From: Myxacorys californica WJT36-NPBG1
GTDB taxonomy: Bacteria; Cyanobacteriota; Cyanobacteriia; Leptolyngbyales; Leptolyngbyaceae
Direction: 5' to 3'
NCBI GenBank assembly: GCA_019359315.1
Contig: JAHHHO010000034.1
Span: 1-58,064 of the forward strand
Length of the DNA: 58,064 nucleotides
The notes below the pieces were generated by a model. It was not told where the DNA came from. It did no database searches and saw nothing but the letters and a program-made list of their open reading frames with translations. Positions 17,320-50,412 of this stretch are shown piece by piece (the first letter of the stretch is position 1; each line of letters begins with the position of its first letter). The position numbers were made by a program, and so were the translations under genes.

Positions 17320-17331
17320 TCCGTCGTTGAT

Positions 17332-29053: not shown

Positions 29054-29359
29054 ATGGCTGTGATTAGCGCAAAGCGCAACTCCGAAGGAACCGAACAACC
29101 AACGCTAGTGGATCTCGTGCGGGAAACGCGACAACGCTTGCAACTCTCACAAGCCAAGTTTGCGACGAAGCTAGGAGTTTCATTTCAGAGCGTTAATCGT
29201 TGGGAGAACGGGCGGACGAAGCCCGTACCGATCGCTTCGCTACACGGATACGTGCTTGCGTTGAAGCAGGTTGAGCAATTGCTGCACCAGATGGGCGACT
29301 CTGGCAAAGGTCTGCTTGCCAAATACTTTTCACAGCAAGGACGGAGACGATATGACTGA
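29054..29359 (+). CDS. XRE-family HTH regulator
   Basis: The 101-residue product carries a clear HTH (LVRETRQRLQLSQAKFATKL, then GVSFQSVNRWENGRTKPVPI). It is a short DNA-binding protein, probably autoregulatory. The first 13 residues after Met (AVISAKRNSEGTE) are mostly encoded by a copy of the dispersed palindrome (29060-29093), so the original start may have been GTG 29111. The stop overlaps the ATG of the downstream kinase by 8 bp, making this the first gene of the signalling block. Confidence 0.85.
   Translation: MAVISAKRNSEGTEQPTLVDLVRETRQRLQLSQAKFATKLGVSFQSVNRWENGRTKPVPIASLHGYVLALKQVEQLLHQMGDSGKGLLAKYFSQQGRRRYD
29060..29093. repeat. dispersed palindromic element, copy C (in-frame at the 5' end of the XRE gene)
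   Basis: GTGATTAGCGCAAAGCGCAA followed by CTCCGAAGGAACCG. It encodes ISAKRNSEGT just after the start codon of the XRE gene. Confidence 0.75.
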
Positions 29360-32300
29360 TAGACTCCAGCGCTCTGTCCCTTCAGGCAGTGGTTTATCTC
29401 AAAATACTACTCTAGACATCACTGAAGCCGATGTCCTCATGACAGCAGAATTGGCAAGTCGTCCAGCTCGGCAGCCCGATTTAGCAGCGGAAATCCAAGC
29501 ACTTCAAATCCTTGCCCAGCAGCTCACAGATGACCCGCAGGTGATGCTCAAAACCCTCGTTGGAATCGTGCTTGATCTCGCTCAAGCGGGCACTGCGGGA
29601 GTCAGCTTACTGGAAACTGCGCCGGATGGTGAATCCGTCTTCCGTTGGGTCGCGATTAGCGCAAAGCCCAACTCCGAAGGAACCGCAGGAGCATTCACAG
29701 ATTTAGAGCACACCACAACCCCAGGTGATTTTAGTCTCTGTTGCACCACTCTTCGCAGTAACCAGCCCCAACTATATGCCTATCCTGAACGCTACTTCAC
29801 CTATCTGCACCATCCTCAGTGTCCGATCGTCGAAGGATTGGTAATTCCGCTATGCGTGAACCATCAACCCTTGGGCACGCTGTGGCTTTTGTCCCATGAT
29901 GAGGCACGTCGATTTGACTTAGAGGATCAGCGGTTAATGACCCGTTTAGCTGGCTTTGCCGCTGCTGCCCTCCAAAGCATGCAGCAGGTGCGCCAGAAGG
30001 CTGAGGACGCGCAGCGATCGCAGAAAGTGGATACAGAACAGGCACAATCAGCAGTGCCATTGCGCCAAAGCGAGGAGGTGAGTCAGCAGATCCTCGATAG
30101 TAACGATGACTGCATCAAGGTGTTGGACTTAGAGGGGCGAATTCTGTTCATGAGTCCGGCGGGGCAAGCGCTGCTGGGCATCCAGGATATAACGCCGTTC
30201 CTCAACACGCCCTGGGCTACGTTCTGGGAAGGCGCAGCTCAGCAAGCGGCCATCGAGGCGATCGCAGGGGCAAAAGCAGGAGAGGTTTGTACCTTTCAAG
30301 GGTATCGCCCGACGATGACCGGCGAACTCAAGTACTGGGATAACAAAGTTACTCCCATCCGCTCTCCGAATGGGCAAGTTGAACGGCTGTTATGCATCTC
30401 GCGGGACATCACCGAGCGCAGGCGGAGCGAAGACAAACGCAGACAGGCTGAGGAGTGCTTGCGTAAGAGTGAGGAGCACTTATCTGCGATCTTTTCACGA
30501 GCAGCGGTGGGGCTTTCCGAAGTCTCGCTCGATGGACATTTCCAGCGGATCAACGACAAGATGTGTCATATGCTGGGGCGATCGCGTCAGGATATGTTAG
30601 CGGCAAGCGTGTTCGGTGTTACGTATCCCGAAGACGTGCCCAAGAGCCTCCAGGCTCTTCAACATCTGGTTGAAACTGGCGAGCCGGTCTCACTTGACAA
30701 GCGCTACTTGCGCTCGGATGGAACGATCGTCTGGGCAAACAGCAGCCTCACCCGCCTCGACGATGAGCAGGGGCGTCCACGTACCCTACTAGCGGTCACT
30801 GTTGATCTAAGCGATCGCAAACAAGCAGAAGAAGCCATTCGCCGTTCAGAAGAAAAATATCGCACGCTGTTCGAGTCGATGGACGAAGGCTTTTGCCTCA
30901 TCGAAGTTTTGTTTGATGAAACCGGAAAAGCAGACGATTACCGCTTCCTGGAAGCCAATCCGGCATTTGAGAAACACACGGGACTTGTGGACGCGATTGG
31001 CAAAACAATGCATGAGTTAGTGCCGCAGCACGACGCACCTTGGTTTGAGATTTACGGCGAAATTGCGCTAACGGGGACACCCACACGGTTTGAAAACTAC
31101 GCCAGTGCGCTTAAGCGTTTTTACGATGTTTACGCCTTCCGCGTCGGCCAGCCACACGAGCGCAAGGTAGCAGTTTTCCTCAAGGACATCAGCGATCGCA
31201 AGCAGGCAGAAGAATCGTTGCGCGAATCGGAAGCGCGGCTGCAAAAGGCGATCTCCATCGAAACAGTTGGTGTAATTTTCTTTAGCGCCGAGGGCGTCAT
31301 TACCGACTGCAATGACGCGTTTCTCCGCATGAGTGGCTACAGCCGTGAGGATTTTGAGCAAGGGCGAGTGCGATGGGACGAACTGACTCCACCAGAGTGG
31401 ATGCCCGCTTCTTGGAGGGCGATCGAGGAATTTTTAACCCTGGGGCGCACAACGCCTTACGAAAAGGAATACATCCGCAAAGATGGTTCGCGTTGGTGGG
31501 GTTTGTTCGCGGCATTCCGCCTCAACGGAACTGAAGGTGTGGAATTTATTATCGACGTCAGCGAACGCAAAGGAGCCGAAGCCGCTGTCGCCGCAGACCT
31601 TAGAGATACCCAACTCTTGCGTGACTTGAGCGCACGACTGCTCGGCGAATCTGACGTTCAGGTGCTTTACGACGAGATTGTGACGACTGCGATCGCATTG
31701 ATGCAGGCGGATGCTGGCTCATTTCAAGTGCTCGATACCGCGACGCAAGAACTGCTGTTGCTTGCTACGCAGGGCCTTAGTCAGGTAATAGCTGGGCATT
31801 TCGATTGCTTCGATCGCATTGATGCCAGTTTCAATACATCCTGTGGCATTGCCCTGGCAACTGGCGAGCGATCGTTTGTTGATTTTGATGTGCCAGAAAG
31901 CGAAGACCCAAATGGTTATCGGCGAATTCATGTCGAGGCTGGGTTGCTCTCTGCTCAGTCTACTCCGCTCATCTCTCGTTCCGGCAAGTTGATCGGCATG
32001 GTGTCAACCCATTGGCGCACCCATCACCGACCGACGGAGCGCGAACTGCGATTTCTGGATTTACTAGCGCGTCAGGCGGCTGACCTGATTGAGCAGCGAC
32101 AAGCTGAAGCCGAACGCAAAAAACTCTTAGAACAAGAACAGGCGGCGCGGGAGGAAGCCGAACGAGCCAACCGCATCAAAGACGAATTTTTGGCAGTGTT
32201 ATCTCATGAGTTGCGATCGCCGCTCAACCCTATTCTCGGTTGGTCAAAACTATTGCAGAAGGGCAATCTAGACGCGACAAGAACCCAGCACGCCTTGAAG

Positions 32301-33284
32301 ACGATCGAACGGAACGCCAACCTGCAATCGGAATTGATTGAAGATCTGCTAGATGTTTCCCGGATTCTACAAGGCAAACTGTCCCTTACGGTGAGTTCGG
32401 TCAATTTAGCGGTGGTGATTCGAGCGGCGATGGAAACGATGCGACTTGCGGCAGAAGCGAAATCGCTCCAAGTCGAAGCCCGTCTTAACCCAGAAGTGGG
32501 GAACGTATCCGGCGATGCGACTCGTTTACAGCAAGTGATTTGGAACCTGCTTTCCAATGCTGTTAAGTTCACTCCCGCAGGGGGTCGGGTGACAGTGCAA
32601 TTAGAACAGGTGGGGAATCAGGCTCAAGTCACTCTGAGCGATACAGGGAAGGGAATTCAGCCTGAGTTCGTGCCCTATGTATTTGAATACTTCCGGCAAG
32701 AAGATGGGGCGACGACCCGTAAGTTTGGTGGACTGGGACTAGGGCTAGCGATCGTGCGTCACCTCGTCGAACTGCATGGGGGCACAGTTAGGGCTGAAAG
32801 CCCCGGAGAAGGACAGGGAGCAACGTTTGTAATCCGACTGCCGCTGATGCGGGCGGCATCAAAAGCGACTCAGGACGAGCGACTGCCTGAGAATCCTGTC
32901 GCTTTGAATAACATCAACATTCTCATAGTGGATGATGAAACCGATTCTCGTGAATTGGTGGCGTTTTTATTGGAACAGCAAGGGGCACAGGTGAGAACCG
33001 CCGCTTCAGCACACGAAGCCCTGATCGTTCTGTCCCAATCAACGCCTGATGTCCTGCTGAGTGACATCGGCATGCCAGAGATGGATGGCTATATGTTAAT
33101 CCAGCAGGTGAGAACGTTAGCACCAGAACAAGGCGGGCAAATCCCGGCGATCGCGCTGACGGCTTATGCTGGGGAAATGAATCAGCAACAGGCGCTGGCA
33201 GCAGGGTTCCAGAAACACATTTCTAAACCAGTAGAACCGCAGAAATTAATTCAAACGATTTCTAGTCTGATTCGGTCTGCTTAG
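29352..33284 (+). CDS. multi-PAS/GAF hybrid sensor histidine kinase
   Basis: From ATG 29352 (GGAG seven bases upstream) the product is about 1310 residues. The order is a GAF domain (about 35-220), four PAS/PAC units (about 240-360, 365-490, 490-610, 615-745) and a second GAF domain (about 755-915). A short coiled coil follows, then HisKA with His952 in FLAVLSHELRSPLNPILGWS, HATPase (about 1060-1175; DTGKGIQPEF, GLGLGLAIVRH) and a C-terminal receiver with Asp1238 in LLSDIGMPEMDGY. There are no membrane helices. Residues about 101-112 (AISAKPNSEGTA) come from the dispersed palindrome inserted in the first GAF domain. The downstream regulator lies 213 bp further on. Confidence 0.92.
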   Translation: MTDRLQRSVPSGSGLSQNTTLDITEADVLMTAELASRPARQPDLAAEIQALQILAQQLTDDPQVMLKTLVGIVLDLAQAGTAGVSLLETAPDGESVFRWVAISAKPNSEGTAGAFTDLEHTTTPGDFSLCCTTLRSNQPQLYAYPERYFTYLHHPQCPIVEGLVIPLCVNHQPLGTLWLLSHDEARRFDLEDQRLMTRLAGFAAAALQSMQQVRQKAEDAQRSQKVDTEQAQSAVPLRQSEEVSQQILDSNDDCIKVLDLEGRILFMSPAGQALLGIQDITPFLNTPWATFWEGAAQQAAIEAIAGAKAGEVCTFQGYRPTMTGELKYWDNKVTPIRSPNGQVERLLCISRDITERRRSEDKRRQAEECLRKSEEHLSAIFSRAAVGLSEVSLDGHFQRINDKMCHMLGRSRQDMLAASVFGVTYPEDVPKSLQALQHLVETGEPVSLDKRYLRSDGTIVWANSSLTRLDDEQGRPRTLLAVTVDLSDRKQAEEAIRRSEEKYRTLFESMDEGFCLIEVLFDETGKADDYRFLEANPAFEKHTGLVDAIGKTMHELVPQHDAPWFEIYGEIALTGTPTRFENYASALKRFYDVYAFRVGQPHERKVAVFLKDISDRKQAEESLRESEARLQKAISIETVGVIFFSAEGVITDCNDAFLRMSGYSREDFEQGRVRWDELTPPEWMPASWRAIEEFLTLGRTTPYEKEYIRKDGSRWWGLFAAFRLNGTEGVEFIIDVSERKGAEAAVAADLRDTQLLRDLSARLLGESDVQVLYDEIVTTAIALMQADAGSFQVLDTATQELLLLATQGLSQVIAGHFDCFDRIDASFNTSCGIALATGERSFVDFDVPESEDPNGYRRIHVEAGLLSAQSTPLISRSGKLIGMVSTHWRTHHRPTERELRFLDLLARQAADLIEQRQAEAERKKLLEQEQAAREEAERANRIKDEFLAVLSHELRSPLNPILGWSKLLQKGNLDATRTQHALKTIERNANLQSELIEDLLDVSRILQGKLSLTVSSVNLAVVIRAAMETMRLAAEAKSLQVEARLNPEVGNVSGDATRLQQVIWNLLSNAVKFTPAGGRVTVQLEQVGNQAQVTLSDTGKGIQPEFVPYVFEYFRQEDGATTRKFGGLGLGLAIVRHLVELHGGTVRAESPGEGQGATFVIRLPLMRAASKATQDERLPENPVALNNINILIVDDETDSRELVAFLLEQQGAQVRTAASAHEALIVLSQSTPDVLLSDIGMPEMDGYMLIQQVRTLAPEQGGQIPAIALTAYAGEMNQQQALAAGFQKHISKPVEPQKLIQTISSLIRSA
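29652..29686. repeat. dispersed palindromic element, copy D (in-frame inside a kinase GAF domain)
   Basis: GCGATTAGCGCAAAGCCCAA followed by CTCCGAAGGAACCGC, near-identical to copies B and C. It encodes AISAKPNSEGTA between the GAF strands VFRWV and the loop before DFSLCCTTL. Confidence 0.8.
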
Positions 33285-33383
33285 CGATCGCTGCAAATCT
33301 TGCAATGAGGAAAAGATAATACGACTTCTCGCACCATGCGCTTACGTTTCATCTGGTTAGCACTCCTGGCCAACTCTACGACC

Positions 33384-33424
33384 TCACTGTTGAAGTTCAC
33401 TGTTGAAAGCTCACTGTTGAAGGG
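33384..33424. repeat. 13-14-bp tandem triplication
   Basis: TCACTGTTGAAGT, TCACTGTTGAAAGC and TCACTGTTGAAGGG follow one another in the gap between the hybrid kinase and the response regulator. Confidence 0.85.
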
Positions 33425-33497
33425 CAAGCAGTAGGGTCATGTGTAGGAGTGCTATATCTTGTAGGAAGATGGAGTAAAAGTTACTACTTCAAATTCT

Positions 33498-33938
33498 ATG
33501 GAAGATTCATCAGCAGCCCTATCCATCCTGGTGATAGAAAGTAATCCTGATCATGCTCAATTGATTCAAGAGGTATTGAGTAGTAATTCAATCCAGCACC
33601 AAATTGTCACGATCGCGGATGGATTAGAGGCGTTGGACTTTCTGCACCAACGGGAAAATTATGTGTCCGCTGCTCGTCCAGATTTAATTTTATTAGATTT
33701 AAATATATCAGGAAAAAATGGCAGAGAAATTCTGTCAGAAATTAAAACAAATCCGCAACTCAAGAGAATTCCAATTGTGGTATTAACGACCTCTACCGAG
33801 GAAGCAGATATTTTCAACAGCTATGCTCAGCAGGGCAACTGTTATGTGATCAAATCTTTTGATGCCAATCAACTATTTCAAGTTGTTAAGCGAATTGAAG
33901 AATTTTGGTTGGGAATTGTAACTCTTCCAGTGGAGTAG
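33498..33938 (+). CDS. Rcp-like single-domain response regulator with altered acidic site
   Basis: The 146-residue protein is a stand-alone receiver of the phytochrome-associated Rcp type. Family features are the phospho-acceptor Asp67 in LILLDLNISGKNGREILSEI, the Thr/Ser position in IVVLTTSTEE, Lys in CYVIKSFDAN and the terminal IEEFWLGIVTLPVE. At the N-terminal acidic pocket it reads LVIESNPDHA where Rcp proteins read LVEDN; the second acid is replaced by Ser. Phosphorylation by Mg2+-dependent chemistry may be weakened. It lies upstream of the phytochrome gene on the same strand. Confidence 0.9.
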   Translation: MEDSSAALSILVIESNPDHAQLIQEVLSSNSIQHQIVTIADGLEALDFLHQRENYVSAARPDLILLDLNISGKNGREILSEIKTNPQLKRIPIVVLTTSTEEADIFNSYAQQGNCYVIKSFDANQLFQVVKRIEEFWLGIVTLPVE

Positions 33939-34239
33939 AGACTTTCATACACAAGAAGTTTTATTAAAAAAAGCCGATTTTTATAATCAAAACCAAACTT
34001 ATAAATTGTTTATATCGTGTAAGAAAATATTTCTTTTTTTAGTCAATGGAAGCTTTCTTTTATTTAAGAATTCCCGCCCCACGATCCACAATTTTCTGCG
34101 ATATGCTGCTGACGGAGGACTAAAAATCGAATGCATATATCGGTAGGTAGATTTATCGGTAAGCATATTAGTAAATTCATGCCCTCCAGGTTTGCTTTAT
34201 TTCAGTTCAATTTGTACTTTGGCTCTGTGGAGGCTAATC

Positions 34240-36546
34240 ATGGTTGGTATGAATTTAGAGACTCAAGAAATTAATTTAACTCGATTAAAACAGCCATCAA
34301 TTCATACCCTGACGCAAATTCAACCTCATGGAGTTTTGCTGGTTCTACAAGAACCCGATTTAAAGATTCTGCAAGCCAGTAAGAATACATCTACAGCCCT
34401 TGGTATTAAGGCAGAAGACGTTTTGGGCAGAACGCTAGATGAGGTGCTCGATTCGTTTCAGGTCGATCGCTTTAGGACTGGGCTAGCTCAGGAAAACCTG
34501 GATCTGATTAATCCCACCAAGGTCTGGGTGAGACGGAAAGGGGATGATTATCTAGTGTTTGATGCTGTTTTTCATCGCAGTGCTGACGGCTTTTTGATAT
34601 TGGAATTAGAGCCTGCTCTAAGCCATGAAAATATTCCCTTTCTCAGCTTCTACCATCTGGCAAAAGCCTCTATTAACCAGCTAGAGGCAACCTCTAGTCT
34701 GCAAGATTTCTGCCAAATTATTGTGCGAGAAGTTCGCAATGTCACGGGGTTCGATCGCGTCATGCTCTATAAGTTTGACGATGATGGACATGGTGAAGTG
34801 GTTGCCGAAGAAAAACTGGATGAAATGGAGCCTTATCTGGGGCTGCATTTTCCAGAGTCAGATATTCCCCAGCCTGCCCGCAAAATGTTCGTCTCCAACT
34901 GGATTCGCGTCATTCCTGACGCTCACGCTGAACCTGTTGCACTTTATCCGGCGGCGAACCCGGTTACCAATCAGCCGCTCGATCTGACGCTTTCCATTTT
35001 GCGTAGCCCCTATTCCTGCCATATGGAATACCTGCACAACATGAAAGTGGGTGCGTCACTCACGATTTCGCTGATGAAAGACCAGAAACTTTGGGGGCTA
35101 ATTGCCTGCCACCATCAGACGCCCAAGCTAGTCAACTATGAACTGCGAAAGGCCTGCGAATTTCTGGGGCGAGTCATTTTTGCCGAAATTTCTACCCGTG
35201 AAGAAGCGGCAGATCATAGCTACAAAATGAAGCTAGCTGGGGTTCAGTCGGCGTTGATTGAATCCATGTCCCAAGAGGACAATTTTATTGATGGCTTGAT
35301 GCAACATGAGCCAAACCTGTTAGATTTAGCCGACGCAACGGGTGCTGCCATTTGTTTAAGTGGACAGTGGACGACGATCGGTCGGACACCTGGTGAAGAG
35401 GAACTCAACTACCTAGTTCACTGGTTAGGAAAAACGGTTGATGAGGAAATCTTTTACACCGATTCGCTGCCGCTGATTTACTCCGATGCAGAACGGTTCA
35501 AGGATGTGGCGAGTGGCTTACTGGCGATTCCGATCTCGAAGCGGAGCTACGTTCTGTGGTTCCGTCCTGAAGTGATTCAAACGGTGAACTGGGGAGGTGA
35601 CCCCAATAAGGCGTATGAATTGATCGAATCCGGTAGTCATCCGCGCTTGTGTCCCCGTAAGTCGTTTGAGCTGTGGAAAGAGACGGTGCGCTTGAAGTCT
35701 CTACCCTGGAAGCAGGTTGAGGTCAAAGCCACGCTAGAGCTGAGAAAGGCGATCGTTAACATCGTGCTGCGGCAAGCAGAAGAACTGGCACTGTTAGCTC
35801 AAGATTTGGAGCGTTCAAACGCAGAGTTGAAGAAATTTGCCTATGTTGCTTCCCACGATTTGCAGGAACCGCTGAACCAGGTCGCGAACTATGTGCAGCT
35901 GTTAGAGATGCGCTATCACGATAATCTTGACCAGGATGCTACGGACTTCATCGATTTTGCCGTTGAAGGTGTTAGCCTCATGCAAACCTTAATCGATGAT
36001 GTATTGGCTTACTCCAAAGTCGATCTGAAAGGGATTGAGTGGGAACTGACGGAAGTTGAAACCGCTCTCAATCAGGCGTTAGGGAACGTTCGCGGTCGGA
36101 CGACGGAAACGGGCGCTGTGATTACCTCTGAGCCGATGCCGACGATCGTGGCAGATGGCACCCAATTGATGCAGCTCTTCCAGAACTTGATTGGCAATGC
36201 CATTAAATTCAGGCAAAAAGACGAGCTGCCCAAAATTCACATCGGCGTGCAGCGGCAAGAGGATGCCTGGTTATTCTCGGTCAAAGACAATGGGATTGGG
36301 ATTGATCCACAGTTTGCCGATCGCATCTTTGTGATTTTCCAGCGGTTGCATACCCGCGATGAGTACGCCGGTTCTGGCATGGGGCTCGCCATCTGTAAGA
36401 AGATTGTTGAGTGCCATCGGGGACGGATTTGGGTTGAATCTGAACTCGGCAAAGGTGCAACCTTTTATTTCACTATTCCGGTAGGAAGGCGCGATCGTCA
36501 TGCCAGTGGACGCAAAAACCAAAATTATCCTTCTGGTCGAAGATAA
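34240..36546 (+). CDS. Cph1-type phytochrome sensor histidine kinase
   Basis: From ATG 34240 (GTGGAGG upstream) the product is 768 residues. It contains a PAS-like domain (about 20-125), GAF (about 140-310), PHY (about 325-505), HisKA with His539 in YVASHDLQEPLNQVANY, and HATPase (DNGIGIDPQ, GSGMGLAICKK). The GAF domain has LHFPESDIPQPARKMF with the DIP motif and PYSCHMEYLHNM, where Cys260 matches the position of the phycocyanobilin-binding Cys259 of Cph1. ACHHQTPK follows as in Cph1. It should be a red/far-red photoreceptor. It overlaps the Rcp gene downstream by 47 bp, so the pair is coupled. A longer frame from TTG 34192 is less likely. Confidence 0.93.
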   Translation: MVGMNLETQEINLTRLKQPSIHTLTQIQPHGVLLVLQEPDLKILQASKNTSTALGIKAEDVLGRTLDEVLDSFQVDRFRTGLAQENLDLINPTKVWVRRKGDDYLVFDAVFHRSADGFLILELEPALSHENIPFLSFYHLAKASINQLEATSSLQDFCQIIVREVRNVTGFDRVMLYKFDDDGHGEVVAEEKLDEMEPYLGLHFPESDIPQPARKMFVSNWIRVIPDAHAEPVALYPAANPVTNQPLDLTLSILRSPYSCHMEYLHNMKVGASLTISLMKDQKLWGLIACHHQTPKLVNYELRKACEFLGRVIFAEISTREEAADHSYKMKLAGVQSALIESMSQEDNFIDGLMQHEPNLLDLADATGAAICLSGQWTTIGRTPGEEELNYLVHWLGKTVDEEIFYTDSLPLIYSDAERFKDVASGLLAIPISKRSYVLWFRPEVIQTVNWGGDPNKAYELIESGSHPRLCPRKSFELWKETVRLKSLPWKQVEVKATLELRKAIVNIVLRQAEELALLAQDLERSNAELKKFAYVASHDLQEPLNQVANYVQLLEMRYHDNLDQDATDFIDFAVEGVSLMQTLIDDVLAYSKVDLKGIEWELTEVETALNQALGNVRGRTTETGAVITSEPMPTIVADGTQLMQLFQNLIGNAIKFRQKDELPKIHIGVQRQEDAWLFSVKDNGIGIDPQFADRIFVIFQRLHTRDEYAGSGMGLAICKKIVECHRGRIWVESELGKGATFYFTIPVGRRDRHASGRKNQNYPSGRR

Positions 36547-36946
36547 CCGGGGTGATGTTCGGTTAATTCAGGAAGCCTTAAAGAGCACCACTGCCCAATG
36601 TCAGGTGGTGGTAGCTCGTGATGGCATGGAAGCCATGGCATATCTGCGGCAGGATGGGGAGTATGAAGAGGCAATGCGCCCTGACCTCATCCTGCTAGAC
36701 CTGAATTTACCTAAAAAAGATGGGCGGGAAGTGCTAGCAGAGATTAAGGCCGACCCCAATCTCAAGCACATTCCCGTCGTTGTTCTCACGACTTCTCGCA
36801 ACGACGAGGACATTTCTAAGAGCTACGATCTCCATGTAAACTGCTACATCTCGAAATCGCGAAATTTGCCTCAGTTATTCAAAATCGTCCGGGGGATTGA
36901 GGAATTTTGGTTGGAAACGGCAACGCTGCCATCGGAGGAACGGTAG
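36500..36946 (+). CDS. Rcp-type response regulator, phytochrome partner
   Basis: The 148-residue single-domain receiver has the full acidic site: LLVEDNRGDVRLI, Asp67 in LILLDLNLPKKDGREVLAEI, VVLTTSRNDED, Lys in CYISKSRN and a C-terminal GIEEFWLETATLP. It is very like cyanobacterial Rcp1, the regulator phosphorylated by Cph1. The start ATG 36500 lies inside the 3' end of the phytochrome gene in another frame. It has no output domain, so it acts by protein contact. Confidence 0.93.
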   Translation: MPVDAKTKIILLVEDNRGDVRLIQEALKSTTAQCQVVVARDGMEAMAYLRQDGEYEEAMRPDLILLDLNLPKKDGREVLAEIKADPNLKHIPVVVLTTSRNDEDISKSYDLHVNCYISKSRNLPQLFKIVRGIEEFWLETATLPSEER

Positions 36947-42777: not shown

Positions 42778-44144
42778 AGCTCATTCGATTCGCACTTTCA
42801 TTATTAGTGATTGTCATTAGTGGATGTATATTTGCTACAAAAGCATGGGCATTCTGTGGTTTTTATGTTGCGAAAGCTGATTCCAAGTTATACAACCAAG
42901 CGTCACAAGTTGCGATCGCGCACAGCGGTAAGAAAACTGTTTTGACGATGGCAAACGATTACCAAGGCGAGGTGAAAGATTTTGCCATTGTTGTTCCCGT
43001 TCCCGTTGTATTGCAAAAGGAGCAGGTTAAAATTGCCGAGCCTAAAATCATTGAGCGATTAGATGCTTTTAGCGCTCCACGATTGGTTGAATACTTTGAC
43101 GAAGATCCTTGTCGGGTGGATGAAAATCGAGCGTATAATGGAGCGCCAATGCCTCAAGCAGCTCCAGCCCCCGCCGCCAGTCAAAGGGGTGAGGTATCAC
43201 TCGGAGTGACGGTTGAAGCCAAATTCAATGTAGGAGAATACGACATTCTGATTCTAAGTGCCAAAGAATCTAGTGGACTCGAAACGTGGCTGCGTCAGAA
43301 TGGCTACAAGCTGCCTCAAGGCGCAAACCAATTGCTGAAACCCTACATTCGCCAGAAGCTAAAATTCTTTGTTGCTAAGGTCAATTTAGAAAAATTTGAC
43401 CAATCTGGAATCGAAAAATTGCGTCCTCTGCAAATTGCTTATGAGTCACCGCGATTTATGTTGCCGATTCGGTTAGGCATGATCAATGCAAAACAAGCAC
43501 AAGATCTATTGATTTACATCCTTTCACCCAAAGGACAAGCAGACGTAACCAACTATCGAAGGGTGAAAGTGCCGTCGGGTGAGGAAGTTCCCGTGTTTGT
43601 GAAAAATGAGTTTTCCGACTTTTACACCTCAACGTTTGCCAATTCTTACGATCGCGAAGGTCGAAATGTCGCTTTTCTAGAATACGCGTGGGATATGAGT
43701 AATTGCGATCCCTGTTCGGCTGAGCCTCTCAATCAAGACGAACTGAAGCAAGCAGGTGTATTCTGGCTCAATGGTTCTGAAGCATCAACGAGATCGATGC
43801 CACCAATATTTGGGCGTCCGATGCCCGAGGCTGATGCAGGAGTGTTTATCACTCGGCTACATGTGCGCTACACTCGCGACAAGTTTCCTGAAGATCTAAT
43901 GTTTCAAGAAACGTCAAATCGCGATTCATTCCAAGGGCGGTACGTGTTGCGCCATGCTTTTACAGGCGAGACGACGTGTCAAGAGGGAAGACGGTATACG
44001 CGATCGCTGCCTCGGCGCTATGAAAAAGAAGCTCAAACTCTCGCTCGCTTAACGGGCTGGAATATTAATGACATTCGCAAGAAATTGCCGCAAGTTCAGA
44101 AGCTCTCGTGGTGGCAGCAGGTGTTCCTGTCGTTAGTAGACTAA
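42774..44144 (+). CDS. DUF2330 exported protein
   Basis: From ATG 42774, with GGAGG upstream, the 456-residue product starts with a signal peptide (MKLIRFALSLLVIVISGCIF, cleavage after KAWA). It continues with CGFYVAKADSKLYNQASQVA, VPVPVVLQKEQVKI and DEDPCRVDE, the DUF2330 pattern. A Pro/Ala-rich linker (GAPMPQAAPAPAAS) splits the domain. Conserved Cys occur in SNCDPCSAEP. It is presumably periplasmic. The partner RnfD-like protein is translated just upstream. A longer frame starting at 42588 overlaps the RnfD gene and is not favoured. Confidence 0.87.
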   Translation: MKLIRFALSLLVIVISGCIFATKAWAFCGFYVAKADSKLYNQASQVAIAHSGKKTVLTMANDYQGEVKDFAIVVPVPVVLQKEQVKIAEPKIIERLDAFSAPRLVEYFDEDPCRVDENRAYNGAPMPQAAPAPAASQRGEVSLGVTVEAKFNVGEYDILILSAKESSGLETWLRQNGYKLPQGANQLLKPYIRQKLKFFVAKVNLEKFDQSGIEKLRPLQIAYESPRFMLPIRLGMINAKQAQDLLIYILSPKGQADVTNYRRVKVPSGEEVPVFVKNEFSDFYTSTFANSYDREGRNVAFLEYAWDMSNCDPCSAEPLNQDELKQAGVFWLNGSEASTRSMPPIFGRPMPEADAGVFITRLHVRYTRDKFPEDLMFQETSNRDSFQGRYVLRHAFTGETTCQEGRRYTRSLPRRYEKEAQTLARLTGWNINDIRKKLPQVQKLSWWQQVFLSLVD

Positions 44145-44175
44145 CGTTGCATTGATGACGTTGCATTGATAAAGA

Positions 44176-44222
44176 ATGGGTTGGTGTGGATCGCGCTCAT
44201 TGCGTCAGCCACACCAACCCAT
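44176..44222. terminator. 14-bp perfect stem hairpin after the DUF2330 gene
   Basis: ATGGGTTGGTGTGG and CCACACCAACCCAT pair perfectly around a 19-nt loop, 32 bp after the DUF2330 stop. It is probably a transcription-ending or RNA-stabilising stem. There is no long U tract, so the terminator call is an inference from position. Confidence 0.55.
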
Positions 44223-44240
44223 CTCTGTTTGCAGATCATG

Positions 44241-44274
44241 TTTACAGGGATACCTTCATCAATATCCCTGTAAA
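44241..44274. terminator. 12-bp perfect stem hairpin between convergent genes
   Basis: TTTACAGGGATA and TATCCCTGTAAA pair around a 10-nt loop, just before the end of the convergent DUF4142 gene. Position and symmetry suit a bidirectional terminator. Confidence 0.6.
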
Positions 44275-44279
44275 CCAAT

Positions 44280-44978
44280 TTAGAAGCCTTTAGCAGCCAT
44301 ATTTTGCGCCATCTCTAAATGATCTGAGACAATCGGCAAGAACTGCTTTGCAAACGCTTTCAAATTTGCATCGCGTCCTGCTCTCTGATAAGTCTGATAT
44401 TCAGCTTGAGTTCCGGCATGACCTCGGACTTGACCGACAATATAGGCTCTATCAAATTCAGAGCCTGATAATTGAGACAACTCGTCTAGCAAAGGACGAT
44501 TGAGAGGGCCAACATCCTTTGGCAAGGTGATGCCTTTCTGCATCGCGATCGGCATGAGTCTTTGGCTAGAAGTCGTATGGTCGCGAATCATACGTTCTGC
44601 ATACTGGCGCACGTTTGGATTGGTTGATTTCTGCAACGCCAGTTGGCTGGTTTGAATTTCCGTTTGGTCACTTTGGGCAGCTTTAATCGCGAACTTAGTA
44701 TCGATATCGCGAGTTGCCGCAGGAGATACTCTCGAACCTGGTGTAGCTGGTCTTGCTGGTGTAGCTGGTCTTGGACGAGGCGAAGTATTGACTTGAGGCG
44801 CACGAGGAGACGAGGGAGAAGTAGGAGCTTGAGCTAAAGCAAGCGAGTCTGCCTCTAAAGGCGAATGAGTCTTCAGCCCAGAATGAGGCAGTCCCATCAC
44901 TCCAAACAATGCCCCAATGCCGACCAGACTTAGAGAACCAGCAATTTTTCTAACCTTGTGTTTTTGAAAGATAGACAT
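44280..44978 (-). CDS. DUF4142 exported protein
   Basis: The 232-residue product has an N-terminal signal or anchor (about 10-32, IAGSLSLVGIGALFGVMGLP). A Pro/Arg/Thr-rich linker follows (about 50-85, PRPRPATPARPATPGSR). The DUF4142 helical bundle then runs DTKFAIKAAQSDQTEIQTSQ, VRQYAERMIRDHTTS and LKAFAKQFLPIVSDHLEMA. The family is periplasmic and ferritin-like in fold, of unknown function. It is convergent with the RnfD/DUF2330 pair. Confidence 0.88.
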   Translation of the reverse strand: MSIFQKHKVRKIAGSLSLVGIGALFGVMGLPHSGLKTHSPLEADSLALAQAPTSPSSPRAPQVNTSPRPRPATPARPATPGSRVSPAATRDIDTKFAIKAAQSDQTEIQTSQLALQKSTNPNVRQYAERMIRDHTTSSQRLMPIAMQKGITLPKDVGPLNRPLLDELSQLSGSEFDRAYIVGQVRGHAGTQAEYQTYQRAGRDANLKAFAKQFLPIVSDHLEMAQNMAAKGF

Positions 44979-45266
44979 GAGGGGTAACAGCGTTCTATTA
45001 AGGATTAATCTTCAGCTTCAGATTAGCGATCGCGACTCCACGATTCGTCTACCCAAAGAACAACTTGGTCTCAACCACCAGACAGAACACATTTATCACC
45101 ACGCCTACATCACCATTACGGACAGTGGCTTAAAATCGCCTCAACTTTGATGAAATGTTCTACAAAAAATTAAGTGTTCTACAAATAAAATTCAGTTTTG
45201 TTTGGGCTGGTATGATATGCAAGACCAAACCAGATCGAGCATTCATTGTTTTTGAGGGACATAGGC

Positions 45267-45728
45267 ATGAAAGGCATGATCGTCGCGCTGCTGTTGGTGC
45301 TAACCCTATTAGGATTTCCGAAAGCAGCGTCTGCCCACGCACTACAGGCAGACTATTCGCTGCTCCAGAAGTCTCAGCTAGAAATTCAGGCGAAGTTTAG
45401 CGATGGAGAACCATACCCGTTTGCGGATGTGCAAGTCTTTGCTCCTAAAGATGCAACTCGCCCTTGGCTAGAAAGCAAAGCCAATGCTCAAGGACAGTTT
45501 GAATTTATTCCAGATGCATCGCTGAAGGGCGATTGGACAGTCAAAATTGGCAAGTCAGATCACAAGGATATTTTGACGATTCCGGTCAGCGATCGCGGAG
45601 TTGAAGTAAACGAGATCAGCCAAGGATTCGGGCGATCGCTAAAAGCTCAACTGGCTGTTTGGGGCTTTGCCGCGATCGCGGGTATTACCGGAACTCGCTT
45701 GTTATCACCCCGTCTGCTAAATCGGTAG
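45267..45728 (+). CDS. exported, membrane-anchored protein next to a metal exporter
   Basis: From ATG 45267 (GAGGGA upstream) the 153-residue product has a signal peptide (MKGMIVALLLVLTLLGFPKA, cleavage near ASAHA). An Ig-like domain follows (LEIQAKFSDGEPYPFADVQV, then GQFEFIPDASLKGDWTVKIG). A C-terminal membrane helix reads LAVWGFAAIAGITGTRLLSP. This resembles the accessory components found beside Ni/Co transporters (carboxypeptidase-regulatory-like or NikK-like). It lies 185 bp upstream of the NicO gene on the same strand. The mature N-terminus begins with His, a possible metal ligand. Confidence 0.78.
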   Translation: MKGMIVALLLVLTLLGFPKAASAHALQADYSLLQKSQLEIQAKFSDGEPYPFADVQVFAPKDATRPWLESKANAQGQFEFIPDASLKGDWTVKIGKSDHKDILTIPVSDRGVEVNEISQGFGRSLKAQLAVWGFAAIAGITGTRLLSPRLLNR

Positions 45729-45862
45729 GTTTTTCACATTCGATACTCCAACGCGCGATCGCACTTCAAATCAAGGGCGATCGCTTTTTTACAATTACTC
45801 AACTCACGCTCCACAAAAGTGCGATCGCTTACAACACGGTTACTCTTACAACACCGCTATAC

Positions 45863-45886
45863 GTTAACAGTTAGTAAGTTAACAGC
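45863..45886. promoter_or_regulatory. paired GTTAACAG direct repeats upstream of the NicO gene
   Basis: GTTAACAG occurs at 45863-45870 and 45879-45886, 16 bp apart and about 28 bp before the ATG at 45914. The core GTTAAC is itself a palindrome. Position suits a regulator site of the metal exporter; this is inference. Confidence 0.35.
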
Positions 45887-45913
45887 GACATAACTTACAA
45901 CGAAGGTTTTCCC

Positions 45914-46717
45914 ATGAAACGACTGCATCAATTCGCGGGTTATCTCACAGTAATGCTATTCGGGTTTGCCTTGACCGCATCGCCTGCGATCGCGCATCCA
46001 CTCCACCTAGAATTTCTGCTCACACAACCATTGACACCCGCCTTATTTCTAGCAGGATTAGGTCTTGCGTTTTGTATTGGTGCGGGACATGCGTTAACGC
46101 CAGGTCATGGTAAGACGATGGTTGCAGCTTACTTAGTTGGAACTCAAGGCACTCCGCAACAGGCAGTCTTACTCGGAGTTGTCACTACGTTAACGCATAC
46201 GATCGGAGTATTTGCTTTAGGAATCGTTGCGTTAGTTGCTTCTCGATATGTTGTACCAGAAGATCTGTATCCTGTTCTCAGTTTGGTGAGCGGAATTACG
46301 ATCGTTGGTGTTGGTTCTCAACTGATTTTAGATCGGCTTCAATCATCGTCCAGCCATCATTCTCACGATCATCATCATGAGCATCACCATCACAAATCTG
46401 TTGCCACCTCTTCGCTGATCTCTTTAGGAATTGCGGGTGGATTAGTTCCTTGTCCGTCGGCGTTGGTATTATTGCTCAGCGCGATCGCACTTCATCAAAC
46501 CGTTTATGGCATCGTTCTGGTGAGCGCTTTTAGTCTCGGTTTGGCGTCTGTATTAATCGCATTAGGCATTGCGGCAATTTATGCCCACCACTGGTTTGAG
46601 CAGTTCTCATTTGAGCAGTTCTCAACCGGGCAACTGCTTCAAAAATATCTTCCGATTGCTAGTGCGATCGCCATCACCCTCGTTGGCGTTGTACTGTCCA
46701 CAAACGCACTTCTGTAG
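45914..46717 (+). CDS. NicO-family nickel/cobalt exporter
   Basis: The 267-residue protein has a signal-like first helix and six or so membrane helices. The NicO/RcnA motif is GAGHALTPGHGKTMVAAYLV and a second is TLTHTIGVFALGIVAL. A histidine-rich loop (HHSHDHHHEHHHHK, about residues 146-160) precedes LGIAGGLVPCPSALVLLLS. These are the hallmarks of Ni2+/Co2+ efflux permeases. A perfect in-frame 15-bp duplication (46595 and 46610) gives FEQFSFEQFS in a loop near the C-terminus. The start ATG 45914 is clear. Confidence 0.9.
   Translation: MKRLHQFAGYLTVMLFGFALTASPAIAHPLHLEFLLTQPLTPALFLAGLGLAFCIGAGHALTPGHGKTMVAAYLVGTQGTPQQAVLLGVVTTLTHTIGVFALGIVALVASRYVVPEDLYPVLSLVSGITIVGVGSQLILDRLQSSSSHHSHDHHHEHHHHKSVATSSLISLGIAGGLVPCPSALVLLLSAIALHQTVYGIVLVSAFSLGLASVLIALGIAAIYAHHWFEQFSFEQFSTGQLLQKYLPIASAIAITLVGVVLSTNALL
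46595..46624 (+). repeat. 15-bp in-frame tandem duplication in the NicO gene
   Basis: TTTGAGCAGTTCTCA is present twice in a row and encodes FEQFS-FEQFS. Confidence 0.95.
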
Positions 46718-46856
46718 TCCGTTTGTAATTCGATGTAAGTTCAACTTAAAATTACAGTTCCGAAATTGCGCATCTTGAGAGTGAAGACTGAAACAGTCGT
46801 TTCTATAGATGATGGAGATTTCGTAAATCTGTCATAAGATAGAGTAGACATATTGA

Positions 46857-46872
46857 TACTACATGTGTAGTA
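46857..46872. promoter_or_regulatory. 16-bp palindrome upstream of a small gene
   Basis: TACTACATGTGTAGTA is a perfect dyad 37 bp before the ATG of the small reading frame at 46909. It could be an operator. No regulator can be assigned. Confidence 0.4.
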
Positions 46873-46908
46873 TTTTAATAGAAGAATATTTGAGGAGTTT
46901 GCCTTCCC

Positions 46909-47124
46909 ATGTTATGTAACTTCCCCTGGAACAGTACCGTTGAGCCACGACCCAGCACCAGCTTGGGAAATGTGCTGTTCGCAGTTGTGGGAACATATAG
47001 CGTCGGTGGCGATGCAGCTATTAATGCCATAGGCATAATCTCGGAAAAATTAGACTACAGAGAGCCAGATCTAGAGCAATCGACCCAGAGCGGAAGGTGC
47101 AGGCGCGTCCTGTCACCCACATAA
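46909..47124 (+). CDS. possible small protein, unknown
   Basis: A 71-codon frame begins MLCNFPWNSTVEPRPSTSLG and has a mildly hydrophobic middle (NVLFAVVGTYSVGGDAAINA) and a polar end. No family is recognised. In its favour, TGAGGAG lies about 11 bases before the ATG, a palindrome lies upstream and an intrinsic terminator starts 32 bp after the stop. Against it, composition and codon use are unremarkable. The transcript could instead be a small RNA. The rest of the gap 46718-47327 shows nothing else. Confidence 0.4.
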   Translation: MLCNFPWNSTVEPRPSTSLGNVLFAVVGTYSVGGDAAINAIGIISEKLDYREPDLEQSTQSGRCRRVLSPT

Positions 47125-47155
47125 AGCCAGAGCAGTTTATCGACTGTAACTAGCT

Positions 47156-47193
47156 ACCCCCGCTCTTAGAACCAGAGACGGGGGTTCTTTTTT
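47156..47193 (+). terminator. intrinsic terminator
   Basis: ACCCCCGCTCT pairs with AGAGACGGGGGT (one bulge) around a short loop and is followed by TTCTTTTTT. This is a textbook rho-independent terminator for rightward transcription. Confidence 0.85.
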
Positions 47194-47327
47194 GGGGGTT
47201 TGCACGTTAGCCGCCGCTAACCAGTTTTAGAACATTAAGGACATTAGTTAACCAAGCCGGTCATGGATTGAATGAGACTTCAACCTTTGTATGGCTGACT
47301 CAAACCGCCACCCAGGAGTGACGCACG

Positions 47328-47744
47328 ATGTTAAAGCTCACCTACACCGAATTTGGATTGCACTTAGAGCGGGTCACCACTTCTCTAGAGACGCTGGTTG
47401 CTCAGCGAGTTGTGTTGGCGTTGCGTTTAGGATGTACGCTGCACGTTGAGTCGAGCCGCGCTGCCTTTCTGATTTCTGCTCACGCTCCGGGGTTAGCCAC
47501 TCTAGAAAGAATGGTGCGATCCTTCGGAGCTTCGCAAAGCGAATCGAAGGAATCGCAGCACTCGACGCTAACACTGGCATTGGTCGATGATGAATTTGTC
47601 GAGGTCGGCTTGCAAGGGTGCTGGATAGCAGACAGCGCTGATGCTGACGAGGGAATGTTTGTCACGGCATTAGAGGAGCGGGTTGAATTCTTTGTTTATG
47701 AGTTGTGGCAAGTCACCCAAGCAGAAGCCGTCTGCAATTCGTAA
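47328..47744 (+). CDS. conserved cyanobacterial protein (alr0857-like) with repeat insertion
   Basis: The 138-residue protein begins MLKLTYTEFGLHLERVTTSL and ends with EGMFVTALEERVEFFVYELW. I recognise this pattern from a conserved cyanobacterial family of unknown function. Residues about 64-77 (RSFGASQSESKESQ) are encoded by a copy of the dispersed palindrome (47516-47556), inserted in frame between two conserved strands. The start ATG 47328 is well placed. Confidence 0.75.
   Translation: MLKLTYTEFGLHLERVTTSLETLVAQRVVLALRLGCTLHVESSRAAFLISAHAPGLATLERMVRSFGASQSESKESQHSTLTLALVDDEFVEVGLQGCWIADSADADEGMFVTALEERVEFFVYELWQVTQAEAVCNS
47516..47556. repeat. dispersed palindromic element, copy E (in-frame in a conserved gene)
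   Basis: GCGATCCTTCGGAGCTTCGC followed by AAAGCGAATCGAAGGAATCG and C. The outer arms GCGATCCTTCG and CGAAGGAATCGC can pair. It lies inside the coding sequence 47328-47744 without breaking the frame. Confidence 0.8.
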
Positions 47745-47893
47745 GTTGTAATCCACAGTCGATTGAAGAATCACGGTGGATTACGACCCACTAGAGACAT
47801 TGTGTTGTTTTAATCGAGGAGGTTTAAGAAAAGGTAACTTTCAAAAATTAGACAGCACCTCTGTTGACAGTGACTTTTGTTCTGAAGCTTTTC

Positions 47894-47925
47894 TTGACTC
47901 TCCATTAAACTGGAACTTTTAGAAT
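47894..47925 (+). promoter_or_regulatory. MerR-type promoter with a 20-bp spacer
   Basis: TTGACT (47894-47899) and TAGAAT (47920-47925) are separated by 20 bp. The spacer contains the dyad TCCA-ttaaac-TGGA. Over-long spacers with a central dyad are the signature of promoters activated by MerR-family regulators. It lies 48 bp upstream of the merR-family gene itself, suggesting autoregulation. Confidence 0.6.
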
Positions 47926-47972
47926 AAAGAGAGATGCTGAGTAGTTCAAGTTTGTGATGCGGGGTACAAAAG

Positions 47973-48425
47973 ATGTATAGCGTCAAGACAGAAAATCTCT
48001 TGAAGATTGGAGAAGTGGCGGCTAGCACCAATTTGCCGATCAAAACAGTCCGCTATTATGAGGAGCTTGGATTGCTGACACCCACTGTCAGTCGCTCAGA
48101 ATCTAACTATAGATTGTTTAAACCGACTGTTCTGGATCGGTTGTCGTTCATTAAGCGATCGCAAGCGTTAGGTCTTACCTTGCGTGAGATTCAAGACGTT
48201 CTGAATGTGCATGATCAAGGACAACTTCCGTGTGACGAAGTAAAACACAATCTTCAGAGAAAACTTCAACAAATTACCGAGCAGATTGAAGCCCTACAAC
48301 TGCTGCGCTTTGAGTTACAAGGTTTGTTGTCAGGTTGGCAAGATCAGCCTTCAGAAGAGATTGCGGCACGAACTATTTGTCCAAACCTAGAAACAGCAAC
48401 TCTGTTCGAGATCGATCAGAATTAA
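47973..48425 (+). CDS. MerR-family metal-type regulator
   Basis: The 150-residue protein has the MerR winged helix (LLKIGEVAASTNLPIKTVRY, then YEELGLLTPTVSRSESNYRL and FIKRSQALGLTLREIQDVL). A dimerisation coiled coil follows and Cys87 (QLPCDEV) and Cys136 (ARTICPNL) flank it. The cysteines suggest a metal or thiol sensor of the CueR/ZntR/CadR branch. No efflux ATPase is adjacent, so the regulon is unknown. The start is ATG 47973. Confidence 0.9.
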   Translation: MYSVKTENLLKIGEVAASTNLPIKTVRYYEELGLLTPTVSRSESNYRLFKPTVLDRLSFIKRSQALGLTLREIQDVLNVHDQGQLPCDEVKHNLQRKLQQITEQIEALQLLRFELQGLLSGWQDQPSEEIAARTICPNLETATLFEIDQN

Positions 48426-48431
48426 GGCTCT

Positions 48432-49040
48432 TTAGTGAAGTTCCGCATCAAAACTCGAAGCGCCTTTAAGGAGAAGGTTTAGAGCGCGTCGAACGGATTC
48501 TGTCCAAGATTCAGGGTTTGGTTGAAAAATTAATGCATAAAGCATGATTCCGCTCATCGCATCGAAGACTAAACCAGGATCTAGGTCTGCCCCAATTTCA
48601 TGTCTTGCTTTTGCTCGCTCCAGTACAACCGCAAAGGCTTGGCGTCGAGGTTGTAAATATTTTGTCCAGTAAATCTCCGCAAACTCAGGATTGCTCGATG
48701 CACTGCTGATAATCATGGCAACGGTTTGTCGTCCGAGCGGACTGAGCGTGATTTGTGCAGCACTTTGAATTAGTGCGTCAATATCGCTCTTCAGGCTACC
48801 TGTATCAGGAATGACGATTTCTTCTCGAACTCGTTCGATCGCATCCGCAACCAGTTCTGCTTTAGAGGCATAGCGACGATAAATAGTTGCTTTGCCGACT
48901 CCAGCCCGAGCCGCGATCGCGTCAATGCTCATAGCATCAAACCCAACTTCTCCCAGTAATTCTAAGGTCGCTTGCAGCATGGCTTGATGAGATTGGGCAC
49001 TGCGAGGTCTTCCTGGCGACTTTTTATGAATGTCATTCAT
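48432..49040 (-). CDS. TetR-family regulator
   Basis: From ATG 49040 the 202-residue product has an N-terminal TetR HTH (TLELLGEVGFDAMSIDAIAA, then RAGVGKATIYRRYASKAELV) and an all-helical ligand domain. A GTG at 49070 would add ten residues not expected in the family. A perfect 15-bp palindrome covers the start codon. The convergent MerR gene lies 6 bp away. The divergent Coq4-like gene starts 46 bp away and is a plausible target. Confidence 0.9.
   Translation of the reverse strand: MNDIHKKSPGRPRSAQSHQAMLQATLELLGEVGFDAMSIDAIAARAGVGKATIYRRYASKAELVADAIERVREEIVIPDTGSLKSDIDALIQSAAQITLSPLGRQTVAMIISSASSNPEFAEIYWTKYLQPRRQAFAVVLERAKARHEIGADLDPGLVFDAMSGIMLYALIFQPNPESWTESVRRALNLLLKGASSFDAELH
49026..49040. 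promoter_or_regulatory. 15-bp palindrome over the TetR start codon
   Basis: ATGAATGTCATTCAT reads the same on both strands apart from its central base. Its minus-strand copy begins with the ATG of the TetR gene. Length and symmetry suit a TetR operator in the shared intergenic space. Confidence 0.45.
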
Positions 49041-49086
49041 GAGTGCTAGTATAAATTTACGAAACTGCACCGTATCGAAATAAACG

Positions 49087-49593
49087 ATGAGCCAGCAGCC
49101 TCGTCCTCATTACACGGACAAAACCAGTACTCAGACGCTTCGAGAAGGACTAGAGGAATACTATGCCTTAAATCCGAACATCACCGATTCAAGAGGACTC
49201 CCCCCGGACTTTGCAAAAATTTTGCTGGCACATGATGTCTCGCACATTATCTACGGTTGCGATACAGGCATGTACGATGAACTCAAAATTTTGCCGCTCA
49301 CTTGGTGGACAAGCAACTACAAGTTTCGGGATCACCTCAACACGATTAAAGATCCAACCATTAGCCCTGCAATTCGCGTGATGTATGACGACTTGATCAA
49401 AGAGCATGGAGTGCTCTGGTTATATGCCTCGATTTTCGTTGTGTTGCCTCAACTATTCCCAGAATTGATTTCAATGTGGTTGAAGTCACGTCAGAGATCC
49501 CAGTTGGTTCCATTTCTTGATTTTGAATCCTTACTCGATCGTTCTCTCCTGGATATCCGTCAAGAGTTTGACCTATTGCCGTTTATCAAATGA
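49087..49593 (+). CDS. Coq4-like protein
   Basis: The 168-residue protein contains HDVSHIIYGCDTGMYDE. This satisfies the HDxxH-x11-E zinc motif of COQ4 (His49, Asp50, His53, Glu65), and COQ4 is the protein that decarboxylates and hydroxylates the coenzyme Q ring. The rest (EGLEEYYALNPNITDSRGLP, LLDIRQEFDLLPF) is helical. Cyanobacteria make plastoquinone, not ubiquinone, so the role may differ. The gene is divergent from a TetR regulator and overlaps the next TetR gene tail to tail by 21 bp. Confidence 0.65.
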   Translation: MSQQPRPHYTDKTSTQTLREGLEEYYALNPNITDSRGLPPDFAKILLAHDVSHIIYGCDTGMYDELKILPLTWWTSNYKFRDHLNTIKDPTISPAIRVMYDDLIKEHGVLWLYASIFVVLPQLFPELISMWLKSRQRSQLVPFLDFESLLDRSLLDIRQEFDLLPFIK

Positions 49594-50412
49594 CCGATTC
49601 TGGCTAATCTGTTGCGATTGGCTTCGCCAAGCTTCGAAGGATCGCTTAGACTCGACAAACTGTTTCCCGCAGTTCTTGCAGCGATAACACTGCTTTCCCC
49701 GACGATACCCATTTTTTGATACCTGCTCAGATTGGCAATGGGGACATTTCATTACTTTCATTACATCATCTGACAGATTGTCTCCTACATGCGGCTCTAA
49801 ATACGATACGAGCAACTCTTCAATTTGATCAGTCAATTGTTGCCTATGTTGGAGATCCGGGTTACGCAGTGCAGCAAGCATCACTGCATTGCTGCTGTGA
49901 ACGCACACCTCTGCTAGTAAGCTGCACTGCGCTTCACTCAAAGCTGAGTTTCGCTGCTGCAAGAGACTTGCCATAAAATTAATCGCTTCCTGGGTCATGC
50001 TTTCATCGATCGACTGGAAGATCTCGCGAGAGACATAAAACTGCACAAACACCACCCGTGACACTGGTTGCTCAAACAGTTCTGCGACAGCACTTGCAAC
50101 GGCGTGAATCATTTGGCGGAGAGGTAGCTGAACAATTTCTGGGGTGTTGGTCTGCGCCCACATTCGTTTGACCCGCTCACTGTGGCGCAACTCCATCGCT
50201 TGAAAGATGGCAGCTTTATCTGGAAAAAACTGATAGAGAGACCCGATCGCTGTGCCCGCTTTTGCAGCAATTAGATGGGTGGTCGCTGTTTCGTAGCCCA
50301 CTTCGTCAAACACGGTTGCCGCCGCATCCAAAATTTTTTCGACCCGTTCTTTTCCTCGCTGCTGTTTGGGCTGACGACGCAAACTTCTTGACGAAAGCGA
50401 ATGTTTTGTCAT
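49573..50412 (-). CDS. TetR-family regulator fused to a transposase-type zinc ribbon
   Basis: The 279-residue product has a normal TetR protein in residues about 1-210 (HTH in AAATVFDEVGYETATTHLIA and AKAGTAIGSLYQFFPDKAAI). From 221 a separate zinc ribbon, MKCPHCQSEQVSKNGYRRGK plus QCYRCKNCGKQF, has Cys223, 226, 245 and 248. This is the kind found at the N-terminus of IS1-type transposases. Residues 256-267 (KRSFEAWRSQSQ) are encoded by a dispersed palindrome. The gene is divergent from the Rieske oxygenase gene, 52 bp apart, which it probably controls. Confidence 0.82.
   Translation of the reverse strand: MTKHSLSSRSLRRQPKQQRGKERVEKILDAAATVFDEVGYETATTHLIAAKAGTAIGSLYQFFPDKAAIFQAMELRHSERVKRMWAQTNTPEIVQLPLRQMIHAVASAVAELFEQPVSRVVFVQFYVSREIFQSIDESMTQEAINFMASLLQQRNSALSEAQCSLLAEVCVHSSNAVMLAALRNPDLQHRQQLTDQIEELLVSYLEPHVGDNLSDDVMKVMKCPHCQSEQVSKNGYRRGKQCYRCKNCGKQFVESKRSFEAWRSQSQQISQNRSFDKRQ
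49614..49645. repeat. dispersed palindromic element, copy F (in-frame at a TetR 3' end)
   Basis: GCGATTGGCTTCGCCAAGCT followed by TCGAAGGATCGC. It lies inside the last 35 codons of the zinc-ribbon TetR gene without a stop. Confidence 0.8.

Follow-up and report, generated by a model that had tools for sequence, protein, structure and literature searches.

Two families of tiny HIP1-splitting palindromic repeats in Myxacorys, probable mobile elements of the SDR5 kind

The closest described counterparts of the repeats considered here are the SDR5 elements of cyanobacteria, which Elhai et al. in 2008 reportedly found to be 21–27 nt long, to form a paired structure with compensatory changes and to be thought mobile, RNA intermediates being proposed; such repeats are said to be confined to one coherent cyanobacterial subgroup. 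SDR5 of Nostoc is inserted precisely in the octamer HIP1, between nucleotides 3 and 4 (PMC4390886), SDRs are named among the repeats whose origin has still to be explained (PMC3116915), the palindromic elements of Rickettsia, about 150 bp long and forming ten families, enter unrelated genes in frame, each time adding a peptide (PMC10969869), and GTAG/CGTC is the REP motif (PMC3733652). The subject of this report is two related families of repeats, A and B, in a contig of 58,064 nucleotides (JAHHHO010000034.1; "the window" denotes this whole stretch) from the 5.97 Mb genome of the cyanobacterium Myxacorys californica WJT36-NPBG1. We consider, with a probability of roughly 0.87, that A and B are tiny non-autonomous mobile repeats of the SDR5 kind, inserted at HIP1 in trans and then sifted by selection. 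The evidence comprises base pairing, flanks that are HIP1 or close to it, sites found exactly empty at several loci, copy numbers that centre on the genus, depletion from genes relative to HIP1 and a reading-frame bias.

An initial annotation of the window had listed near-identical elements at five places. Those at 27909, 29060 and 29652 are indeed near-identical (three matches in the window vs none in 100 shuffles) and form family A, with a 27-nt insert and the consensus GCGATTAGCGCAGAGCGCAACTCCGAAGGAACCGC; those at 47516 and 49614 are real but belong to the second, related family B, with a 24-nt insert and the consensus GCGATTGGCTTTGCCAAGCTCCGAAGGATCGC, of which two further members, at 25037 and 4838 (the latter a 22-nt form), had been overlooked. 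Both consensus sequences derive from a 1.63 Mb sample of the M. californica genome (27% of it), where a search for GCGAT and CGC on either side of an insert gave 100 matches against 6 in the reversed control. The insert is 27 nt long in 38 and 24 nt long in 37 of these matches, together 75/100, both lengths lying inside the range reported for SDR5. An interior-only search at ≤3 mismatches, which keeps the target out of the query, found 97 copies in this sample and none in reversed sequence; M. almedinensis, of the same genus within Leptolyngbyaceae and the nearest named relative as judged by the protein encoded at 47328-47744, gave 33 copies in a 0.78 Mb stretch, again with none in reversed sequence. 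Scaling the 97 copies gives about 350 for the whole M. californica genome, an upper-side figure, since the sampled contigs were mostly long ones already known to hold a match and the copy density is perhaps somewhat high. Over the whole genome, 45 copies were found at ≤3 mismatches (none with the reversed pattern), and profile models of family A (R2) and family B (R1), up to 150 candidates being scored per model, matched at least 149 and at least 141 places, respectively. The genome holds a few hundred copies. No Rfam family matched the elements at the gathering threshold, one tRNA being the sole match.

Insertion in HIP1, size and compensatory pairing, as described for SDR5, are found in both families, and the 24 nt of family B fit exactly between nucleotides 3 and 4 of HIP1, the position given for SDR5. 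A and B fit with the already known SDR5-class repeats, a likeness drawn from description and not from sequence; SDR5 comes from Nostoc, whereas A and B were found in Leptolyngbyaceae.

The inserts split HIP1 (GCGATCGC) or a close variant of it, an octamer about 97-fold over-represented here (1116 occurrences in 852 kb vs 11.5 expected from base composition). Among interior-only copies, the implied target is exactly GCGATCGC in 20/48 copies of A and 14/49 of B in M. californica, and in 10/20 and 10/13, respectively, in M. almedinensis. Allowing up to one change, these counts rise to 33/48, 30/49, 15/20 and 12/13, so that 90 of the 130 pooled targets are HIP1 or one change off. Comparison with relatives reveals the corresponding empty sites. 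At 29652, exactly 27 nt are missing both from L101, a paralogue within the M. californica genome, and from L102, a homologue in a different genus (genome G021), each of which reads GCGATCGC, and the M. almedinensis counterpart of C95:1588 is empty to the base with HIP1 intact. At C95:81206, G021 has an empty site with intact HIP1, where the right flank differs by further bases and exactness is unproven, while C6:48457 in M. californica and L265:7512 in M. almedinensis show an exact length difference with a diverged octamer and flanks of 79–83% identity. Overall, nine of 16 flank comparisons have exactly HIP1 spacing, three with intact HIP1 and six with a diverged octamer; the flanks are just 36–62% identical in three of the nine, and another involves a distant kinase paralogue. 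The copy at 29060 implies the target GTGATCGA, two changes away from HIP1, and removal of its 27 nt matches the length after the start codon of three homologues (L101, L104 and L102), none of which has HIP1 there. At 47516, a 10-residue gap is seen in 14/15 aligned homologues and a 3-residue gap in M. almedinensis, the nearest homologue being too diverged around the site. The proposal that the added residues are an exact insertion absent from homologues is thus borne out at 29652 and, in length, at 29060, and at 47516 it meets a homologue too diverged for the comparison.

Conserved host sequence, or chance hairpins flanked by HIP1, would require no mobility, and one loose match, C119:60552, indeed belongs to the native sequence and is conserved in each of the seven relatives searched. 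The exact empty sites, reversed controls of 0 at three mismatches and genus-centred counts nevertheless make this explanation scarcely credible, and for the core set the empty sites refute it.

Families A and B each form two adjacent small hairpins closed by the HIP1 halves (GCGA ... TCGC). Among distinct interior-found copies with ≤4 mismatches (84 of B and 76 of A, from the two genomes), both partners of a pair are changed in 33 cases in B, vs at most 21 in shuffles, and in 16 in A, vs at most 13, none of 500 shuffles being as high in either family. For hand-picked rows, three of the five measures place family B above every one of the 500 shuffles.

Coding effects were assessed with our own codon-usage caller, run on DNA after the elements had been excised, so that the gene call is independent of the element. 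From a loose set of 132 matches in the two genomes (20–34 nt, ≤3 mismatches), a tighter set of 118 (22–28 nt) was taken; the 14 rows left out include the native C119:60552, the window copy at 47516 (parsed as 33 nt) and four of the six rows that break an open reading frame (lengths 20, 29, 29 and 32, each with 3 mismatches). In the tighter set, 60/118 copies lie in predicted genes and 58 of these 60 keep the reading frame open, which agrees with the initial annotation on the lack of frameshifts; out-of-frame copies as frequent as in-frame ones, the result that would have spoken against it, were not found, and the phase bias is strong. The insert adds nine residues in A and eight in B, not the 10–14 claimed, and at 47516 the 9 nt of the original element beyond the model match would be host sequence. 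Insert lengths are multiples of 3 in 58/60 copies in genes vs 45/58 between genes (p = 0.002), or 60/66 vs 51/66 intergenic in the loose set (p = 0.055). Frame retention therefore needs no special coding adaptation, because intergenic copies are mostly multiples of 3 as well.

Within genes, stop-creating placements of A number 0/32 vs about 8 expected (24%, from HIP1 phases; p = 1.5e-4). Family A favours the same strand, phase 0 (18/32, p = 3e-4), and family B the opposite strand, phase 1 (13/24, p = 8e-6), the consensus peptides of these favoured frames being AISAERNSEGT (hydropathy -0.87) and DPSELGKANR (-1.61), respectively; of the B copies, 1/24 and 3/24 lie in that family's two most hydrophobic frames. 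Copies are also depleted from genes relative to HIP1 sites, both in M. californica (43/95 vs 1739/2089, p = 4e-16) and in M. almedinensis (23/37 vs 1038/1277, p = 0.009). We infer frame-blind insertion at HIP1 followed by purifying selection. Hits in genes would often be tolerated, the usual insert having a length divisible by 3 and being open in most frames, and selection would clear the stop-giving placements together with, at least in B, the majority of those yielding hydrophobic peptides. A rather unlikely alternative is that the elements are fitted to life inside genes, insertion at HIP1 by an enzyme of undescribed kind acting as a standing generator of 8–9-residue loops; it is suggested by lengths in multiples of 3, the openness of B in all six frames, ends that make use of HIP1, itself already frequent in genes, and a polar, loop-like peptide in the preferred frame.

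In-frame insertion in genes (58/60) is what A and B share with the Rickettsia palindromic elements, and the resemblance first proposed holds in so far as these are mobile-looking palindromes lying in frame in genes. The inserts of A and B, however, are 24–27 nt long, about six times shorter, and sit at HIP1 in a cyanobacterial host; kinship is rejected on size and target, and the likeness is one of analogy only.

Both families are centred on Myxacorys within Leptolyngbyaceae. Among 42 genomes of the family, the listed matches of A number at least 149 in M. californica, at least 106 in M. almedinensis and 0–26 in the others, and those of B at least 141, at least 67 and 0–6, respectively. Across 291 genomes of the phylum, few of them from the family, the B model (best 24 candidates each) gave strong matches only in the two Myxacorys. 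The A model (best 23 candidates each) gave matches in 49 genomes outside the family, those above 42 bits being one each in G158 and G200 (f22), with the others at ≤29.6 bits among the matches listed. Genomes of the f22 genus g45 (e.g. G084 and G182) have A-model matches at 16–22 places each, many of those listed being 23 or 29 nt long and some clustered, and these are probably another small repeat family. A search of Nostocales with R1 gave weak matches in 5/7 genomes (best E 0.008). Mojavia pulchra (G341) carries six copies of a 25-nt element that likewise splits HIP1 and follows the same plan but differs in its second hairpin, GTGCC-GNA-GGCA; this element was not found in 15 other Nostocales genomes searched; all 16 genomes are ones that we take to be Nostocales. 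The open literature searched, which excluded the key 2008 paper, yielded no description of such repeats in Myxacorys or Leptolyngbyaceae.

This distribution bears on what moves the elements. REP/REPIN-like elements moved by a RAYT or another Y1 (HUH) transposase share with A and B small size, hairpins and high copy number, and a Y1 gene that looks intact (G001:C2:161207) is present in M. almedinensis. REP elements are, however, extragenic, unlike the roughly half of A and B copies in predicted genes; by eye, GTAG or CGTC, the REP motif, is absent from both strands of the A and B consensus; and Y1 genes do not match the copy numbers. M. californica has only two overlapping Y1 pieces (C103:16325-16680), one with internal stops, read as a broken remnant, M. 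almedinensis has 2 matches, and G022 has 42 yet one A and zero B. Y1/RAYT transposition as the driver is rejected on this distribution, and a REP-like origin is very improbable. In the single-contig genome G022, one score and one frame length are common to 39 of the 42 Y1 matches, a pattern suggestive of an insertion sequence that has expanded recently.

An RNA route, with a resident reverse transcriptase of group II intron or retron type making the copies, would accord with the RNA intermediates reportedly proposed by Elhai et al., and M. californica has four RVT_1 matches. M. almedinensis, with its many A and B matches, has zero RVT_1 at E 0.001, and wobble pairs show no strand preference; a reverse transcriptase is disfavoured as the driver because none was found in M. 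almedinensis, and we regard this route as unlikely.

The main rival does without a dedicated enzyme and has the copies spread from one HIP1 site to the next through template switching or short tracts of gene conversion: a replicating strand, stalled at the hairpins, would pair through GCGA/TCGC with a second HIP1 and carry the insert over. In its favour are the HIP1-like halves that flank most copies on both sides, the extreme abundance of HIP1, the broken appearance of the M. californica Y1 transposase and the lack of a detected reverse transcriptase in M. almedinensis. The homology, however, is only 4–5 nt per side, the strong amplification in Myxacorys, with few copies in relatives, is left without a clear reason, and the right half of family A starts with C instead of T in 30/48 copies, so that a pure HIP1-to-HIP1 exchange does not fit. 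We give template switching a real but clearly minority share. A trans-acting enzyme is ranked likeliest as the mover; neither Y1 transposases nor reverse transcriptases track copy numbers. The folded single strand of a source copy, as RNA or DNA, would enter HIP1 in trans by means of such an enzyme.

Several observations weigh against mobile insertion at HIP1 followed by selection, or limit its detail. Neither an act of movement nor a mobilising gene was found. Seven of the 16 flank comparisons lack exact spacing, as do most in a further set, the flanks being mostly diverged in both; several comparators lack HIP1, so that either the target is looser or the sites have since changed; and M. almedinensis L250:14255 and its M. 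californica counterpart on C103 both hold B-like sequence in differing arrangements, so that not every site is species-specific. In M. almedinensis, 2/21 coding copies, both 22-nt forms, break short, low-scoring predicted reading frames. For family A, the hydrophobic antisense frame (phase 1) holds 8/32 copies and the polar same-strand frame (phase 2) 1/32, so that polarity of the peptide leaves part of A unexplained, and the hand-picked rows of A exceed all shuffles in none of the five structural measures. G.T cells are as common as A.C cells (67 v 59, 48 v 49), and the pairing is therefore silent on RNA versus DNA as the moving strand.

The copies in the window and their hosts are listed in Table 1. 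The placement inside genes first proposed holds for 29060, 29652 and 47516; it is weak for 49614, because this copy falls in the last 6% of the TetR open reading frame, in a tail whose sole match, to a zinc ribbon, lies below threshold. That tail resembles the start of an insertion-sequence transposase and is perhaps an old fragment of one fused to the regulator. The start of the hybrid kinase is an ATG that we picked within the open reading frame 29271-33284.

Table 1. Repeat copies and host genes in the window, with the related element of Mojavia pulchra (R1 and R2, profile models of families B and A).
Feature	Position	Strand	Evidence
Family A copy, intergenic, flanked by open reading frames 26012-27799 and 27981-28229	27909..27943	+	R2 53.7 bits
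Family A copy in XRE/HTH gene, from codon 3; 27-nt insert	29060..29094	+	R2 52.7 bits
XRE-type helix-turn-helix (HTH) gene hosting the 29060 copy	29054..29359	+	PF01381
Family A copy in N-terminal part of hybrid kinase, about residues 101-112; 27-nt insert in HIP1	29652..29686	+	R2 50.2 bits
Hybrid histidine kinase (PAS, GAF, HisKA, HATPase, receiver)	29352..33284	+	domain matches
Family B copy in alr0857-like gene; 24-nt insert, implied target TCGATCGC	47516..47547	-	R1 45.5 bits
alr0857-like gene (label from the initial annotation); no Pfam match	47328..47744	+	
Family B copy near 3' end of TetR open reading frame; frame open	49614..49645	+ (gene on -)	R1 50.3 bits
TetR regulator open reading frame with extra C-terminal tail	49573..50412	-	
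Decayed family B copy	25037..25068	-	R1 38.9 bits
Short (22-nt) family B copy	4838..4867	-	R1 38.3 bits
Mojavia pulchra 25-nt element	G341 L323, L326, L329, L332, L335, L342		

Elsewhere in the M. californica genome (G000:C122:13343-13734), four family B matches lie within about 390 nt, three of them in one predicted gene of 936 residues and about 110 nt apart. The window also contains arrays of 21-nt tandem or near-tandem repeats at 17266-17617, 24856-25018 and 4900-5159, and a long run of units 12 or 18 nt apart, of the TCGACC/GTGCCA type, at 19880-20171.

Mobile DNA smaller than the SDR elements may hardly be known. How they move can be tested here, since each of two congeneric species has well over a hundred copies, the empty sites are clean and the target is defined. 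The reading-frame bias reflects selection on what a mobile repeat does to proteins; were the elements indeed fitted to genes, they would be some of the smallest mobile elements known, making protein loops of 8–9 residues. In some proteins of these genomes the inserts may account for additional short loops, which could mislead annotation or alignment, and the genus-centred distribution of the repeats could help to trace recent genome change in Leptolyngbyaceae.

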